From assembly GCA_902779035.1 (NCBI GenBank), contig CACZAH010000015.1:1-36260 (forward strand): a stretch of 36,260 bases of DNA, given 5' to 3'. This document shows, in pieces, positions 43 to 36,219 of the stretch. This DNA is from an uncultured Erysipelotrichaceae bacterium (lineage in GTDB: Bacteria; Bacillota_I; Bacilli_A; RF39; UBA660). The position numbers were made by a program, and so were the translations under genes. Below the pieces are notes generated by a model. The model made no database searches. It saw nothing but the letters and a program-made list of their open reading frames with translations, and was not told the DNA's origin. Within the stretch, counting starts at the first letter, position 1; each line of letters opens with the position of its first letter.

Positions 43-967
43 TTATAATCTACCTCCTATAATTTTAGCAATATCATTTATTACAGTCGCACACACATTT
101 TTATCATGTATTACATCTATACCTGACTTTCTATATCCAATATGATTTATAGAATTACCTGAATGATATACCTTATTATTATCTATTACGAAATACCTAT
201 CATGAAAAGTATCATCATAATATATAGTTAAATTATTATAATCCCTATTATACTTTTCTATATCTAATTTAGATAGTTTACTTCTTTTACCAGTAATTAG
301 AATAACCTTGCACTCTAAACTTCTTATCATATCTAGAAATGTTTTATCAGTATATCGATCCACTACAATCAATTCATCTTTAGCTTCTCCAAATATATCT
401 AATACTTTTGAATAAGCATCATATACTTTACCATTAAAATATACATGATTTATTTTTTTAGCAGTCTCTAACTTATCAAATGATTCTTGTAATAATTTTA
501 TATCTACTGTATTTTTATTAATTCTTTCATTATCTTCAAGAACCATATTGTTTATATATTTTTGCTCAATCAAATTACTAGAAATATAGTGTCTCATTGC
601 AACAAACGCATCCATTATTCTTAATACTCACTTCGGTTGCAACTTTAGTCTTAAGAATTGTAGCTAACATAGCCACTCCTTGTTCTGTAAAAACTCTAAC
701 TTTATATCTTCTTCCGCCATGTGTCCCACCAGTACTTGAGGTCAAATTTTTTGACCTCAAATTATTATATTCCTCATTTTCTAACACCCACGAAAATCTC
801 TCAGGAAACTTACTAGGATTATTTCTTACAGCTTGATTAACTTCCTTTGTTCCATTTTTACATCCATAAAGGATTGCTAAATCAGAATCAAGCATTACAT
901 ACTTACCTCTAATTTCATATATCATATCTTCTATTTTAATATCATCTTTAACCATAACATCTTTCAT
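43..967 (-). pseudogene. ORF6N / PLD-like protein, frameshifted
   Basis: Two reading frames together make one ORF6N protein. The N-terminal part starts at 967 (MKDVMVKDD, preceded by a strong GAGGAGG site) and carries the ORF6N signature IYEIRGKYVMLDSDLAILYG and VFTEQGVAMLATILKTKVATEVSI. The frame is then lost near 616-622, where one extra A turns the expected SIKIMDAF into SIKNNGCV. The C-terminal part continues from MDAFVAMRHY at 615 and ends with a phospholipase-D-like motif, HDRYFVID followed by GNS, a variant HxK motif with Arg for Lys. ORF6N is a KilA-N-type DNA-binding module first described in phage antirepressors; the function of this chromosomal family is not known to me. The C-terminal frame might still be translated alone, but I see no ribosome binding site for it. 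A sequencing error is the main alternative to true decay. Confidence 0.8.
736..760. repeat. Palindrome inside the frameshifted ORF6N gene
   Basis: Arms TTGAGGTCAAA (736-746) and TTTGACCTCAA (750-760) are perfect 11-bp inverted repeats around a TTT centre. On the coding strand they encode LRSKNLTS. The three other ORF6N copies have different palindromes at the equivalent codons, so symmetry rather than exact sequence is conserved. Confidence 0.85.
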
Positions 968-980
968 GAATTTACCTCCT

Positions 981-994
981 CTTAGTGCACTAAG
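981..994. promoter_or_regulatory. Perfect 14-bp palindrome at the predicted transcription start (possible operator)
   Basis: CTTAGTGCACTAAG is its own reverse complement. It sits between the -10 box (1001-1006) and the ribosome binding site of the ORF6N gene starting at 967, where a repressor or the ORF6N protein itself could block initiation. The operator role is inferred from position only. Confidence 0.5.
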
Positions 995-1000
995 GCATAC

Positions 1001-1027
1001 ATTATCACAAGCAATATTCATTGTCAA
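1001..1027 (-). promoter_or_regulatory. Candidate promoter of the left ORF6N array
   Basis: A perfect -35 box TTGACA (1022-1027) is followed after 15 bp by GATAAT (1001-1006) preceded by TGT, an extended -10. The 15-bp spacer is short, which the extended -10 may offset. It lies downstream of the ackA terminator, so the array probably has its own transcription. Confidence 0.5.
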
Positions 1028-2876: not shown

Positions 2877-4361
2877 TCATTTTCTTTCCTTCATTGTTGG
2901 AAATAATAATACATCACGTATTGATGATTGTTCTGTAAATAACATAATTAATCTATCAATTCCATATCCTATACCACCAGCAGGAGGCATACCATACTCT
3001 AATGCTTCAACAAAGTCATAATCAATATCATTTGCCTCATCATTACCCAAATCTTTTTCTTTTAACTGTGCTTCAAATCTTTCAAGTTGATCTATTGGAT
3101 CATTTAACTCAGTGTATGCATTCGCACATTCATGTCCTGAGATAAATAATTCAAATCTCTGCGTAAATCTAGGATCCTCTGGATCTTTCTTAGTAAGAGG
3201 AGAAATTTCAATTGGATGGCCATACAAGAATGTTGGTTCAATCAATGTTTCTTCTACATACTTCTCAAAGAATTTATTTATAATATGACCATATTGTTTT
3301 TCATGTTCTTCAAGTTCAATATTATGTTCTTCGGCTAATTTGATACACTCATCAACACTAGTTATTGCTTTAAAATCAATACCTGTTTTTTCTTTTATTG
3401 CATCAGTCATACTAATTCGCTTCCATTTACCAGATAAATCTATATCATGTCCTAAATAGTTAAATGTAGTTTTTCCACATACTTTATTAGCTATTTCTTG
3501 ATACATCTCTTCTGTTAGATCCATCATACCATCCAAATCAGAATATGCTTGATACACTTCCATCATTGTAAACTCTGGATTGTGCTGTGGATCCATACCT
3601 TCATTTCTAAATACTCGCCCTATTTCATATACAGATTCCATTCCACCTACAAGAAGTCTTTTTAAGTTTAACTCTAAGGCAATACGTAAATACATATCTA
3701 TATCTTGTGTATTATGATGTGTAATAAATGGACGTGCAGCAGCTCCAGATAAAAGATTAGTTAATATTGGAGTTTCTACTTCAGTAAATCCTTTATTATC
3801 TAAGAAGTTTTGAATACATCTAATAATTTTAGGACGCATAAATGCAACCTTCTTAGATTCTTCATTCATAATTAAATCTACATAACGTCTTCTATATCTC
3901 TCTTCTATATCAGTTAATCCATGGAATTTCTCTGGAAGTGGTCTTAATGCTTTTACTAAATGATTATATTTTAAACACTTAATAGTAACCTCACCAGTTC
4001 TTGTTTTCATAATCTTACCATGCACACCAACTATATCACCAATATCAGCTGTTTTAAATAAACTATAAGATTCTTCGCCAATATCATTAATAGAAATATA
4101 TACTTGTATTTTTCCAGTTTTATCTTGAATAGACATAAATGAAGCTTTTCCCATTTTCCTTATAAACATTATTCTACCGGCAATAGTAGCAGTATCATCC
4201 ATATTCTCAAATGCATCATGATCTACATCTTGATATTTTTCTTTAATATCAGCTGCAAAATCAGTTCTTTCAAATCTTTCGCCAAATGGGTCAATTTCAA
4301 GATTTCTAATATTCTTTGCTTTTTCTCTTCTAGCTATTTCTTGATCTGTAAACTCTCTCAC
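2877..4361 (-). CDS. lysS: Lysyl-tRNA synthetase, class II
   Basis: The protein (494 residues from the chosen start) charges tRNA-Lys. It has the N-terminal OB-fold anticodon-binding domain (IAGRIMFIRKMGKASFMSI) and the class II motifs: motif 1 in the FLDNKGFTEVETPIL segment, motif 2 around RVFRNEGMDPQHNPEFTMME, and motif 3 GMPPAGGIGYGIDRL near the C-terminus. An in-frame ATG upstream would give 512 residues, but the GTG at 4361 has AAGGAG seven bases before it and gives REFTDQEIARREKAKNIR, the usual LysRS N-terminus, so I prefer GTG. A strong promoter lies just upstream at 4387-4415. It is the first gene of the lysS-phosphatase-ackA operon. Confidence 0.97.
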   Translation of the reverse strand: MREFTDQEIARREKAKNIRNLEIDPFGERFERTDFAADIKEKYQDVDHDAFENMDDTATIAGRIMFIRKMGKASFMSIQDKTGKIQVYISINDIGEESYSLFKTADIGDIVGVHGKIMKTRTGEVTIKCLKYNHLVKALRPLPEKFHGLTDIEERYRRRYVDLIMNEESKKVAFMRPKIIRCIQNFLDNKGFTEVETPILTNLLSGAAARPFITHHNTQDIDMYLRIALELNLKRLLVGGMESVYEIGRVFRNEGMDPQHNPEFTMMEVYQAYSDLDGMMDLTEEMYQEIANKVCGKTTFNYLGHDIDLSGKWKRISMTDAIKEKTGIDFKAITSVDECIKLAEEHNIELEEHEKQYGHIINKFFEKYVEETLIEPTFLYGHPIEISPLTKKDPEDPRFTQRFELFISGHECANAYTELNDPIDQLERFEAQLKEKDLGNDEANDIDYDFVEALEYGMPPAGGIGYGIDRLIMLFTEQSSIRDVLLFPTMKERK

Positions 4362-12822: not shown

Positions 12823-13227
12823 TTATTTAGTCTTTTTTGTATCGTCGTTATATAGTTCTCCTATTTCACGACTAGACATACTATCAAAGTCTAACTTATC
12901 TGGTTTTTGACTCTTGTGTGATAATTTCCAAAAAAATGATTTCGAATCATATCTTTGCTTAGCTAATTCTATTAATGCTTTTTTCTCTTCTTTTAACCTC
13001 TCTATTTCTTCTTTACGTTCTTCTTCTCTAATTTTTTCTTCAAACTGTAACATAAATGCAACTTTTTCTTCAAAAGTATTAATTGGAATATCACACGATT
13101 TCCTAAATTCTGCAAATTTAGCTGTTAGACTATCAGCGTATGAATCATTCATATGCTGATACATCATATCATATTTAGTAACCAATAAATTATAACGTGC
13201 TCTTGTTATTCCATCAAAATTATTCAT
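12823..13227 (-). CDS. Hypothetical small coiled-coil protein
   Basis: The 134-residue protein is not recognised. It has no signal peptide or membrane segment. Residues about 60-98 are a highly charged helix (EEKIREEERKEEIERLKEEK), likely a coiled coil, and the rest is helical and polar. It starts after a strong GGAGG site and has its own consensus promoter. It is divergent from the TetR gene at 13375, and a palindrome between the two promoters overlaps both -35 boxes, so it is the most likely target of that regulator. Confidence 0.65.
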   Translation of the reverse strand: MNNFDGITRARYNLLVTKYDMMYQHMNDSYADSLTAKFAEFRKSCDIPINTFEEKVAFMLQFEEKIREEERKEEIERLKEEKKALIELAKQRYDSKSFFWKLSHKSQKPDKLDFDSMSSREIGELYNDDTKKTK

Positions 13228-32153: not shown

Positions 32154-32229
32154 TACAAATCCTCCTTTAATCTACTATTATTGTATCATACTTTTATATT
32201 TAATGAAAAGAAAATGCCAAGATAATCCA

Positions 32230-32286
32230 TTAAACATAATACCTTTCTGGAATTTTTTCAGATTTATTCTTTGCTGCCTCATTCAT
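32230..32286 (-). pseudogene. ORF6N micro-remnant (18 codons)
   Basis: The ORF starts at ATG 32286 after a strong AAGGAGG site and reads MNEAAKNKSEKIPERYYV before TAA. The start context is identical to that of the intact ORF6N genes, and NEAAKNKSEKIPER aligns with INEAVKNNPEKFPGR inside them. So the first codons have been joined to a point some 40 codons further in, by deletion, probably at the repeated AATGA(A). It is the decayed last member of the cluster. Confidence 0.7.
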
Positions 32287-32312
32287 TTAACCTTTTCCTC
32301 CTTAATTAATAC

Positions 32313-33179
32313 TTATAAATTCAATAGTTCTAATATCTTAATTAAATATTTTGTATCACGAAACTCATTAATTGCAAAACTCTTTTTACCTAAATCTTTA
32401 AAACTCGCACCACACGTATAAAATAATTTCCTATCTAATATAATAAATCTATCATGAAATGAATCATCATTTATGAATGTTATATTACTATACTGACTTT
32501 CATATTTTTCTTTTAATGTATCATCTATATTTTTTGATACAATTATTATCTTTTTATCTAAATCTTTTAATATATCAAGTAACTCTTTGCCAGCATAATT
32601 ATCTATTATTATTATTTCATCTTCTGCTCTATCTAATATATCTAAAAGTAGTGAATATGCATCATAGAATTCTCCTTTAAAAAAGATATGATTTTTAGCA
32701 ATATCCTCACAATCAAATTTATCAAATAATTCATTAATTCTTTTAGTATTATCATCTACTTTTTCTTCTAATAATAAAACTCGATGTGGTAGAAATGTTT
32801 TATTATAATTAATATAATGTCGCATTTTTACAAATGTATCCATGATTGTGATAGAAACACTTGTTGCAACCTTAGATTTCAATATTGTCGCAAGCATATA
32901 TATACCTTGTTCTGTAAATACTCTTGGATTTGACCTAGACTTACTACTTATATTTGCGGTCGAAAATTTCGACCACAAATTTTCTTTTTCAGAATCATCT
33001 AGTACAAAACTAAATCTTCCCGGAAATTTTTCAGGATTATTCTTTACTGCTTCATTAATTCTTTTTGTCTCTACCTGATAAAGTTTTCCTAAATCTGAGT
33101 CCAACATCACCTGTACTCCTCTAATCTCATAAATCATATCTTCAACCTTTATATTTTCTAATTCAATTATTTCATTCAT
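32313..33179 (-). CDS. ORF6N / PLD-like protein
   Basis: The 288-residue protein starts MNEIIELENIKVEDMIYEIRG. The ORF6N domain (about 8-125) contains VQVMLDSDLGKLYQVETKRINEAVKNNPEKFPGRFSF and PRVFTEQGIYMLATILKSKVATSVSI. A helical link (125-160) leads to a phospholipase-D-like domain (about 165-288) with LDRAEDEIIIIDNYAGKELLDIL and the variant motif HDRFIILD followed by GASFKDLGKK. ORF6N is a DNA-binding module; the C-terminal domain has lost the Lys of HKD and may not be a nuclease. It is downstream of a nearly identical-ended paralogue with 21 bases between. Role unknown; phage-related or defence-related regulation is possible. Confidence 0.85.
   Translation of the reverse strand: MNEIIELENIKVEDMIYEIRGVQVMLDSDLGKLYQVETKRINEAVKNNPEKFPGRFSFVLDDSEKENLWSKFSTANISSKSRSNPRVFTEQGIYMLATILKSKVATSVSITIMDTFVKMRHYINYNKTFLPHRVLLLEEKVDDNTKRINELFDKFDCEDIAKNHIFFKGEFYDAYSLLLDILDRAEDEIIIIDNYAGKELLDILKDLDKKIIIVSKNIDDTLKEKYESQYSNITFINDDSFHDRFIILDRKLFYTCGASFKDLGKKSFAINEFRDTKYLIKILELLNL
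32952..32980. repeat. Palindrome inside ORF6N copy at 32313-33179
   Basis: A 14-bp inverted repeat with one-base centre (32966): core GGTCGAAA / TTTCGACC, extended outward by TTTG / CAAA. One mismatched pair (32957 with 32975) becomes a G-U pair in the coding-strand RNA. Encodes LWSKFSTA. Confidence 0.85.
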
Positions 33180-33200: not shown

Positions 33201-34067
33201 TTATAAATTCAATAGTTCTAATATCTTAACTAAATATTTCGTATCGTGAAATTCGTTAATTGCAAAACTTTTCTTACCTAAATCTTTAAAACTTGCCCCA
33301 CATGTATAAAATAATTTCCTATCTAATATAATAAATCTATCGTGAAATGAATCGTTATTTATAAATGTTATATTACTATACTGACTTTCATATTTTTCTA
33401 TTAATTTATCATCTATATTTTTAGATACAATTATTATTCTTTTATCTATACTCTTTAATATATCTAACAATGTTTTACCTGCATAGTTATCTATTATAAT
33501 TATTCCATTTTTTGCTTTATCTAATATATCTATAAGTAGTGAATATACATCATACATTTGTCCCTCAAAAAACAATTTACTAGCTTCTTTTTCTTTAAAT
33601 TTATCTAGCGTATTTTCTAAAGTCAATAATCTATTCTCATGATTAATTAATATTTCATTATTAATTAAACTATTAGAAAAATATCTTCGCATTTTTACAA
33701 ATGCATCTATAATTTGAATATTTACCTTAACTGCTATATCACTTTTTAATAAACCAGATAACATCATTATACCTTGTTCAGTTAAAACATATGGTAAATA
33801 TTTAAAATGTAGGCCTGTTAAATTATTATTTTTATTTAAGGTCACAAATTGTGACCTTAAAGATAATACATCAATTTCCTCATTTGTGAGTTGAAAACAA
33901 AACTTATCAGGAAATCTATTTATATTTCTCTTAATAGTTTGATTTAAAACCTTAGTTTCTACTTGATATAATTTAGCTACATCTTGTGACAGCATCACTT
34001 GTACTCCTCTAATCTCGTATATCATATCTTCTATTTTTATATTTTCTAATACAACCATTTCATTCAT
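33201..34067 (-). CDS. ORF6N / PLD-like protein, divergent middle
   Basis: The 288-residue protein shares its first 25 codons (ENIKIEDMIYEIRGVQVML) and its last 120 or so with the 32313-33179 gene; the final 48 residues, HDRFIILDRKLFYTCGASFK onward, differ at two positions only. The middle, from about residue 27 to 160, is clearly different: SQDVAKLYQVETKVLNQTIKRNINRFPDKFCFQL, LRSQFVTLNKNNN and YVLTEQGIMMLSGLLKSDIAVKVNIQIIDAF. This gives it another presumed DNA-binding surface. The start is ATG at 34067 after GGAGGAAAGGG. It is expected to be transcribed with the copies on both sides. Confidence 0.85.
   Translation of the reverse strand: MNEMVVLENIKIEDMIYEIRGVQVMLSQDVAKLYQVETKVLNQTIKRNINRFPDKFCFQLTNEEIDVLSLRSQFVTLNKNNNLTGLHFKYLPYVLTEQGIMMLSGLLKSDIAVKVNIQIIDAFVKMRRYFSNSLINNEILINHENRLLTLENTLDKFKEKEASKLFFEGQMYDVYSLLIDILDKAKNGIIIIDNYAGKTLLDILKSIDKRIIIVSKNIDDKLIEKYESQYSNITFINNDSFHDRFIILDRKLFYTCGASFKDLGKKSFAINEFHDTKYLVKILELLNL
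33835..33861. repeat. Palindrome inside ORF6N copy at 33201-34067
   Basis: Perfect 13-bp inverted repeat: TTTAAGGTCACAA (33835-33847), centre A, TTGTGACCTTAAA (33849-33861). Encodes LRSQFVTL. Confidence 0.9.
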
Positions 34068-34104: not shown

Positions 34105-34414
34105 TATATTGTCGCACGCATATATATATTCCTTGTTCTGTGAATACTCTTGAATTATATCTTCAACCACCATAGTTATTCTCTAAACTTGAGGTCGAAA
34201 TTTTCGACCTCAAGTTCTCAGTTTCAATATCATCTAATATAAAACTAAATCTTATTGGAAACTTTTCAGGATTATTCTTTACTGCTTCATTTATTCTTTT
34301 TGTCTCAACCTGATAAAGTTTAGCTAAATCTAAGTCCAACATTACTTGTACTCCTCTAATCTCATATATCATATCTTCGACTATAATTTCACCTCTTTCA
34401 ATAATGTTTTCCAT
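34105..34414 (-). pseudogene. ORF6N gene, degraded 5' part only
   Basis: It starts MENIIERGEIIVEDMIYEIRG at 34414 and follows the ORF6N pattern to LENNYGG, then meets TGA. Beyond the stop the same frame continues RYNSRVFTEQGIYI, so CGA has changed to TGA. A little further on an AT repeat has gained two bases relative to the intact gene, shifting the frame (ICVRQY for MLATIL), and homology ends at about 34105; the PLD-like part is gone. It is closest to the 32313-33179 copy (VETKRINEAVKNNPEKFP). It still has a good promoter, so it probably provides the promoter of the cluster. Confidence 0.8.
34186..34216. repeat. Palindrome inside the degraded ORF6N copy
   Basis: Perfect 15-bp inverted repeat: AACTTGAGGTCGAAA (34186-34200), centre T, TTTCGACCTCAAGTT (34202-34216). 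It is the longest of the four. Encodes LRSKISTSSL. Confidence 0.9.
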
Positions 34415-35182: not shown

Positions 35183-35211
35183 ATTATACTTTAATTAAAA
35201 CTGTTTTTCAA
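35183..35211 (-). promoter_or_regulatory. Promoter of the GNAT gene
   Basis: -35 TTGAAA (35206-35211), 17-bp spacer, -10 TATAAT (35183-35188). It overlaps the 3' end of the yitT pseudogene. Confidence 0.75.
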
Positions 35212-36075
35212 GCTCACCTTTAATACCTAAGCCTTCACTTTTAACCATAAATATCGATATATTTAGTTTTTTCATATGTCTTTCTAACTTAATTAATCCA
35301 TATTTAGTTAATACAGTATAAATAATGTAAGTTCTAGAATCATCATATCCACCTTTAGCATCCCAATAAGTAAAATCTCTATTTAATTCATTTTTAATAT
35401 AATCATTAATAATCATTGGATTTTCTTTACAGAATATAAAGGCTGTTGAACATATATTTTGCTCATGCATTTTATCTGTCATAAAGCTATCTACTGCAGA
35501 TGAAATTATAGATTAGATCATTATAGATATTCCATATCTTAATCCTGCAATTGTGTATATAAATATATTAACTACTAAACCTAGTTTACCTACTGAAAAT
35601 TGATTATTCATTTTAGCAAGAGCAAGTCCTACTATATCTGTTCCACCCGTAGATGCACCACTAGATAAAATCATTCCTACTCCAACACCGCTTAGTAATC
35701 CACAATTACTACGTTTGCCAAAACATCATCTATTAATAATCTACATGGTATTAATGATAACATTATAGATTGTATTGAAACTGCAAATAATGTTCTAAAG
35801 AAGAATGTTTTACCGATTGACTTATATGCTATTATAAATAAAGGAACATTTATTACATAATAGATAATGCCACTAAAATCAAACGATGTATTAATTTTAA
35901 AAACATCTATTACAAAACTTCTAATTATTTGTGATATACCTAATATTCCTCCAGTATATAAATTATTAGGTACAATAAATAGATTAATTGCAAAACAAAA
36001 TATAAAAGAGCCTACTATTGCTTTTATAAAATCCATATAATTCCAATTTAATAATTGATTAATTTTTTCTCTCAA
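35195..36075 (-). pseudogene. YitT-family membrane protein with DUF2179 domain, broken twice
   Basis: Three pieces form one YitT protein. The first has the N-terminal membrane part (FIKAIVGSFIFCFAINLFIVPNNLYTGGILG) and loses its frame near 35703, where one T is missing from ATTTGTGG. The second frame continues CGLLSGVGVGMILSSGASTGGTDIVGLALAKMNNQFSVGK to GISIMI, then a TAA replaces the expected Tyr codon at about 35515. The same frame goes on SIISSAVDSFMTDKMH into the DUF2179 domain (ICSTAFIFCKENPMIINDYI onward) and ends at 35195. The start is uncertain; a TTG at 36075 gives a family-like length of about 293 residues. YitT proteins have no firmly known substrate. With two lesions it is likely non-functional. 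Confidence 0.85.
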
Positions 36076-36122
36076 GTCGCCTAAAGTGTTGCTGTAATGA
36101 TTAAAGTATGATAATATATAAG

Positions 36123-36219
36123 TGCGAAGAATGAATAATATGAATCTTAGAAAGTGGCTTGTATCGGCTAATCTTGATTCATTCTTCGCAAAATTATGAT
36201 TCATTGAGATTAGTCGATA
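36123..36219. promoter_or_regulatory. Overlapping inverted repeats upstream of yitT
   Basis: TGCGAAGAATGAAT (36123-36136) and ATTCATTCTTCGCA (36177-36190) are perfect 14-bp inverted repeats 40 bases apart. TATCGGCTAATCT (36162-36174) pairs with AGATTAGTCGATA (36207-36219) at 12 of 13 positions. The two stems interlock and cannot form together. They could be alternative structures of a leader RNA, or DNA-level sites. I find no known riboswitch or T-box motif. The rest of 36076-36260 shows no gene. Confidence 0.55.

Follow-up and report, generated by a model that had tools for sequence, protein, structure and literature searches.

The locus studied here raises the question of why neighboring ORF6N genes share both ends but differ strongly in the middle, and of what a long palindrome does in that divergent part. 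The evidence from the window (the whole stretch of DNA that was analyzed, 36,260 nucleotides) and from related genes points to the palindrome as the predicted binding site of the very domain in whose codons it lies.

The ORF6N Gene Cluster and Its Mosaic Structure

Gene B (33201–34067, minus strand, 288 aa) encodes an ORF6N DNA-binding domain and a PLD-like C-terminal domain, an assignment based on the Pfam profile PF10543 (105 bits), the PDC-S05 profile (E 4.5e-85) and the PLD fold of its C-terminal part. The paralogue A (32313–33179, minus strand, 288 aa) was assigned by its ORF, its profile matches and the mosaic test and has ends like those of B and a middle like that of the adjacent remnant C. 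Both ORFs are intact, and with 105.4 and 105.1 bits both pass the PF10543 gathering score of 27.8. Remnant C (34105–34414, minus strand), an N-terminal ORF6N fragment ending after TEQG, was identified by its ORF, the ORF6N profile (77.5 bits) and the mosaic test; its frame is open from 34163 to 34414, and the homology continues to about 34105 with one in-frame TGA. A broken ORF6N gene in two overlapping frames, gene D (43–1027, minus strand), carries the helix TKEVNQAVRNN. The small remnant E (32228–32290, minus strand), found by eye downstream of A, consists of an ORF6N start codon fused to the helix region (MNEAAKNKSEKIPERY) and has lost the palindrome; the fusion is possibly a deletion at a short ATGAATGA repeat. 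The cluster is adjoined by a YitT/DUF2179-type gene (35195–36204), which appears split into several frames.

The original prediction, made from the letters of the sequence, described A and B as genes with conserved ends and a divergent middle. The DNA identities agree with this: 27 of 30 nucleotides are identical in the first 10 codons, identity is about 55–64% in the middle, and it reaches about 92% in the final ~200 nt. The C-terminal similarity reaches further than described: within the final ~375 nt, the majority of 45-nt blocks are 84–95% identical. Both genes are encoded on the minus strand. The claim that the degraded copy C shares its middle with A also held, with 77–93% identity through the helix region and only 18/30 at the 5′ end. 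At 100 sites where A matches only B or only C, a first run is of B type and the remainder is overwhelmingly of C type, a switch with p 1e-4 in a max-chi-like permutation test. The breakpoints of A fall around codon 25 and 3′ of the ORF6N domain.

A Palindrome at a Fixed Place in ORF6N Genes

In gene B, the palindrome TTTAAGGTCACAA[A/T]TTGTGACCTTAAA (33835–33861, core 33840–33856) has perfect arms of 13. That of A (32952–32980), with the core GGTCGAAA[A/T]TTTCGACC (32958–32974), has a single mismatch in its arms of 14, and that of C (34186–34216), AACTTGAGGTCGAAA[A/T]TTTCGACCTCAAGTT, has perfect arms of 15. In the sense of the coding strand the cores read GGTCGAAATTTTCGACC (A), GGTCACAATTTGTGACC (B) and GGTCGAAAATTTCGACC (C). 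Broken genes retain the palindrome: C keeps its 15 perfect pairs despite decay, and D carries GGTCAAAA with its center at 748.

An odd palindrome of 25–33 bp is found at this place in nearly every ORF6N gene examined, in at least six phyla. The 223 well-covered distinct ORF6N domains of the sample came from the own genome and from relatives, from further genomes, and from plasmids and viral contigs; the sequences include those of metagenome-assembled genomes, and E-values and trees rest on short domains. A palindrome score of at least 7 was reached in 203 of the 223 domains. At a score of at least 9, 169 of 218 domains qualified, compared to 8 of 218 equal-length stretches just downstream in the same genes. 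With amino acids and local codon use fixed, synonymous codons account for just half of the pairing (5.41 pairs of 12 expected, 11.15 observed, z = 57), and 182 of 183 genes were individually significant (p < 0.05). The gene set for this null was preselected at a score of at least 7; therefore the unselected comparison is the one with the downstream stretches.

The palindrome is read in a second frame in 10 genes, compared to 148 in the usual one, and there encodes unrelated peptides such as FLVEIFDQK or QLVTNCDRF, so selection acts on the nucleic acid. The mismatches within the arms (33 G·T/T·G and 40 A·C/C·A) have no excess of RNA wobble pairs, which argues for duplex DNA and not RNA as the molecule under selection.

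Some copies contain two successive palindromes (locus L039, 3001–3903; L186, near 2678 and 2721). In L039 the helix matches GGTCACAA, the second of the two, and does not fit GGTCGCAA; such a copy looks transitional between one site and another. The loci L172, L174–L176 and L178–L184 include tandem N-terminal ORF6N fragments, spaced about 330 bp apart, that precede a full gene, as well as single ORFs of 430–455 aa with two ORF6N domains; most of the domains have a palindrome of their own. A 31-bp near-perfect palindrome, TATCAGCGTATGAATCATTCATATGCTGATA, lies at 13131–13161 of the window outside any ORF6N gene.

Helix and Wing Residues Covary With the Palindrome

Site positions were numbered outward from the central A/T. 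The recognition helix follows the pattern T-K-x-[IL]-N-x-x-V-x-x-N, which corresponds to residues 38–48 of B (TKVLNQTIKRN, codons at 33924–33956, minus strand) with the reading positions K39, V40, Q43 and R47. Residue 47 goes with position 3 of the site (R with C in 157 cases, N with A in 42, and one case each of H with A and R with T). At residue 43, E corresponds to CG at positions 5–4, L to TT, K mostly to TC and R to G at position 5, while Q corresponds to CA, but to CC when residue 40 is T. Residue 39 goes with position 7, K being paired with G in 151 of 151 cases and R or G mostly with A. In total, helix and site agree in 199/200 cases at position 3, 177/189 at position 4, 187/197 at position 5 and 167/173 at position 7. 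The code was read mainly from Bacilli genes; it also holds in plasmid, viral and non-Bacilli genes (position 3, 48/48).

All four sites of the window are given correctly by these rules, namely GGTCACAA for B, GGTCAAAA for D and GGTCGAAA for both A (helix codons at 33036–33068, minus strand) and C (helix codons at 34271–34303, minus strand), which share the helix TKRINEAVKNN. Furthermore, the wing residues H87–Y90 of B (33798–33809, minus strand) covary with the outer arm, Y90 going with G at position 8 and K89 with A at position 10. Counted backward from TEQG, residue -5 covaries with position 8, residue -6 with position 10 (1.14 of 1.33 bits) and residue -8 with positions 11 and 12.

The helix codons that predict the site all fall outside the palindrome. 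For the covariation analysis a tree was built without the helix code columns and the palindrome region, and its 102 columns give it limited resolution. On this tree, the minimum number of changes is 18 for position 3 and 19 for residue 47; in independent pairs on supported branches position 3 agrees in 5 of 5 cases, while control columns mostly reach 0–3. Since helix and site are close together, recombination co-inherits both, which accounts for their co-inheritance but not for repeated matched change. Template-switch mutation at quasi-palindromes can also maintain perfect pairing, but would not yield the covariation with helix and wing. Because residues outside the palindrome covary almost perfectly with it, the ORF6N domain is predicted to read the palindrome of its own gene, and we consider it very probable that the protein binds there. 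From the code, B would prefer sites containing GGTCACAAWTTGTGACC and A sites containing GGTCGAAAWTTTCGACC.

Exchange of Helix, Site and Wing as One Module

Helix, palindrome and wing fit within about 180 bp. Among the relatives, 93 gene pairs have C-terminal DNA that is at least 82% identical, and in at least 25 of these the modules are only 58–70% identical and usually differ in recognition helix and palindrome. The reverse pattern was observed in 7 of 41 pairs among relatives. On the evidence of the sequences, paralogues with conserved ends swap helix, site and wing jointly, as a single module. Since the module carries all three together, a new specificity would come with its matching site.

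The exchange of specificity modules between paralogues had been part of the original prediction and is supported by the mosaic of A, with ends from B and a middle from C, and by the pairs in relatives. The likeness to HsdS subunits that it drew stands as an analogy of behavior and does not extend to family; the Pfam profiles detected no HsdS or methylase-specificity domain in A or B. It correctly placed the palindrome in the divergent, exchanged middle and missed that this palindrome is the predicted cognate site of the exchanged binding domain.

Among the 20 ORFs of the window that were scanned, no site-specific recombinase was found, as a shufflon-type inversion system would have beside the exchanged genes; there is just an IS66-type transposase, about 6 kb away. 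Homologous recombination at the conserved flanks suffices for the exchange. In Bacteroidota plasmids, two ORF6N genes (L277, L278) are located directly behind integrase or recombinase genes.

Sites Outside the ORF6N Genes and in Bro-N Genes

The genome-wide occurrence of the sites was determined by pattern searches. In the own genome, the general pattern is matched with 0–1 mismatches at 7 places, which are exactly its 7 ORF6N domains, and the search found no regulon elsewhere in this genome. The 68 strict sites found in 23 relatives were assigned by coordinate comparison: 63 lie at ORF6N loci, 4 inside Bro-N genes and 1 elsewhere, compared to 3 matches in all for a reversed control pattern. 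Strict sites are thus almost confined to ORF6N and Bro-N loci. Paralogues within one genome often differ in their site.

Beside several ORF6N loci (L302, L303, L304, L208, L209, L173) there are arrays of 4–6 palindromes of differing specificity, 40–110 bp apart. Three paralogous loci of one genome have the array placed after a conserved leader and ahead of the start codon. In a second genome, two paralogous genes are followed by arrays with similar spacers and changed palindromes. The arrays of L302 and L303 are located downstream of the gene. Some array sites are identical to the in-gene site of a paralogue, and many do not match the site of the adjacent gene. An origin of the array sites as leftovers of coding sequence was rejected, as the spacers, inspected by eye, are not ORF6N coding.

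All 14 Bro-N-type genes examined (among L310–L313 and L319–L343) have an embedded palindrome with a score of 5–14 in the segment EGSQL...VQLK. The core appears to follow the residue pair of the helix motif YWxx (SD with TGCACG, TD with TGTACG, KV with GGTTAC and NV with GGTCAC), in a small sample and with no tree control. This suggests that the entire ORF6N/Bro-N superfamily may be self-addressed.

Phage genomes were considered as targets. In viral contigs, AGGTCACAAWTTGTGACCT occurs in 30 stretches, most of them intergenic, and several resemble terminators. Two control palindromes of the same composition occur in 1 and 13 stretches, respectively; as the viral copies are not clearly above these controls, they are not used as evidence.

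Two readings would dispense with a site in duplex DNA. A hairpin in the messenger governing translation or stability would agree with long perfect stems within a coding sequence; G-U pairs are not above A-C mismatches, however, and both the helix-residue covariation, which is of the DNA-recognition type, and the isolated array copies outside genes fit duplex DNA better, so that we regard this reading as very improbable. The other holds that the palindrome has no function at the DNA level and merely encodes the conserved peptide L[RK]S[QK]xxT, which does belong to the ORF6N family in most members. It is already contradicted by the second frame with its unrelated peptides, the synonymous null, the covariation of helix and wing, the non-coding array copies and the predicted structure, in which the peptide region is the least ordered, and retains hardly any credibility.

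Protein Structure and Family Membership

The predicted model of B has a mean pLDDT of 73.6, with a helix at 38–47 that holds the reading residues and a strand at 93–95. Residues 71–88, which comprise the palindrome-encoded stretch and the following codons, have a pLDDT below 50. In the model the palindrome thus falls in the codons of a poorly ordered loop, which would tolerate dual coding. The C-terminal half has a PLD fold, with NucT (6ehi, E 9.5e-5) and Zucchini (4ggj, E 4.2e-4) as Foldseek matches. The motif H242-D-R244-x4-D249 is invariant in 21 proteins and has Arg in place of the Lys of the PLD motif HxKx4D; the domain is possibly a nuclease. No named family was found for the C-terminal half in Pfam and NCBIfam. 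The PADLOC profile PDC-S05, an unvalidated defence candidate (PMC12988326), is matched by A and B over residues 4–286 (E 2.4e-91 and 4.5e-85, respectively), and the PLD domain may make the ORF6N gene a defence or exclusion gene. The window neighbors scanned do not form a neighborhood of defence genes; they are mostly housekeeping genes and the IS66 transposase. On the Treponema saccharophilum plasmid pTS1 (L279), the ORF6N gene at 3001–3897, whose embedded palindrome is perfect, has a DNA methyltransferase gene on one side and hsdS on the other, and a Fic gene follows. Short ORF6N proteins lacking the PLD part (L277, L280, L282, L284) also have the palindrome, which therefore belongs to the N-terminal module.

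Proposed Role of the Embedded Site

We propose a self-addressed gene, in which an ORF6N dimer would read, with helix 38–48 and the following wing, the 25–33 bp palindrome inside the same gene, placed in the codons for the poorly ordered loop between helix and wing. The site would act as an autogenous operator, at which the bound protein blocks elongation or initiation and keeps its own expression low. The protein would also silence any other copy bearing the same site; as silencing needs the same site, paralogues with different palindromes would be mutually independent. Arrays beside some genes would be extra operators or decoys for paralogues. We think that this combination of own-site reading, module exchange, autogenous operator and arrays is probably correct as a whole. 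The cognate site does lie within the transcription unit of its own regulator, and an autogenous operator appears to be the most likely role. For autoregulation as such we see an even chance, the position of the sites being the evidence for the operator and array steps. The arrays downstream of L302 and L303 do not suit a promoter operator. Exclusion or decoy roles range from rather unlikely to tentatively possible.

A broader reading, which we consider possible although it would be the less probable outcome, takes the ORF6N and Bro-N genes as mobile genes that together make up a closed, self-referring system, in which each has its own target in the codons of the binding domain, often has arrays, and belongs to a compatibility or exclusion group. 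With hardly any targets elsewhere in the genome, the proteins of such a system would mainly affect family copies, and specificity would evolve through swapping of the helix-site-wing module.

There are two further explanations of the self-addressed site, in both of which the PLD domain may take part. In homotypic exclusion, the resident ORF6N protein would silence an incoming gene with the same palindrome or cut it via the PLD domain; this would drive diversification of the helix-site module, and the arrays would be decoys or immunity sites. The full-length matches to PDC-S05, the invariant catalytic-type His/Asp with a PLD fold near that of NucT, the presence of the genes on plasmids and viral contigs, the different sites of paralogues in one genome and the multi-specific arrays are in agreement with it. 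A cutting enzyme would, however, attack its own gene, the palindrome also occurs in short proteins lacking the PLD part, the defence role of PDC-S05 is unvalidated and the intergenic copies in phages do not clearly stand out from a control palindrome, so that we judge homotypic exclusion unlikely. Still less probable is a recombination hotspot, where the protein would nick its own gene after binding it, and mosaics, duplications and remnants would arise when paralogues serve as templates for repair. The mosaics, the PLD-like domain and the clusters that mix intact genes with truncated N-terminal copies would be explained, but the palindrome persists in genes with no PLD part, and the breakpoints of A, lying elsewhere, speak against the palindrome as the crossover point.

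If the self-addressed reading is correct, a DNA-recognition code would be available for a large, widespread and uncharacterized family whose proteins are associated with phages and defence, and for each ORF6N member the gene itself would reveal the predicted target. A protein-coding stretch would at the same time be the predicted binding site of the encoded protein, surviving changes of frame and specificity, and swaps of specificity between paralogues with no loss of the matching site would be explained. This raises the question of why a DNA-binding protein needs its only strong site inside itself.

Comparison With Known Systems

Along their length, A and B correspond to PDC-S05, and in the N-terminal domain to Pfam ORF6N, while the embedded site, the recognition code and the arrays are undescribed for PDC-S05, ORF6N and Bro-N in the literature found. 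The literature searched, which included few subscription papers, gave no paper in which an embedded site is linked to ORF6N, KilA-N or Bro-N.

Operators of autogenous repressors are known within genes, such as lacO2 inside lacZ and lacO3 at the end of lacI, and here, too, a DNA-binding protein is predicted to act on a palindrome in coding sequence. The ORF6N site differs in that it lies in the binding domain's own codons, at a fixed place across phyla and in more than one frame, appears to co-evolve with protein specificity and hardly occurs elsewhere in the genome. One parS site lies in spo0J of Bacillus subtilis, so that ParB/Spo0J also has its palindromic target inside its own gene; parS is near-invariant and occurs elsewhere as well, whereas ORF6N sites change along with the protein and remain at family loci.

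HsdS subunits of type I restriction-modification systems exchange target-recognition domains. Conserved ends and a specificity module exchangeable between paralogues are common to both, but no sequence relation was found, and HsdS genes are not known to carry a target inside the exchanged module. In phage immunity regions, a repressor and its cognate operators are swapped as a block. Specificity and cognate sites likewise move jointly and create compatibility groups, with the difference that the operator-like site of ORF6N genes is located inside the coding sequence of the DNA-binding domain. As far as the sequences tell, none of the known families tested or found combines a target site within the domain with matched change of specificity, and the embedded site appears to be a new way to keep a DNA-binding protein matched to its target.
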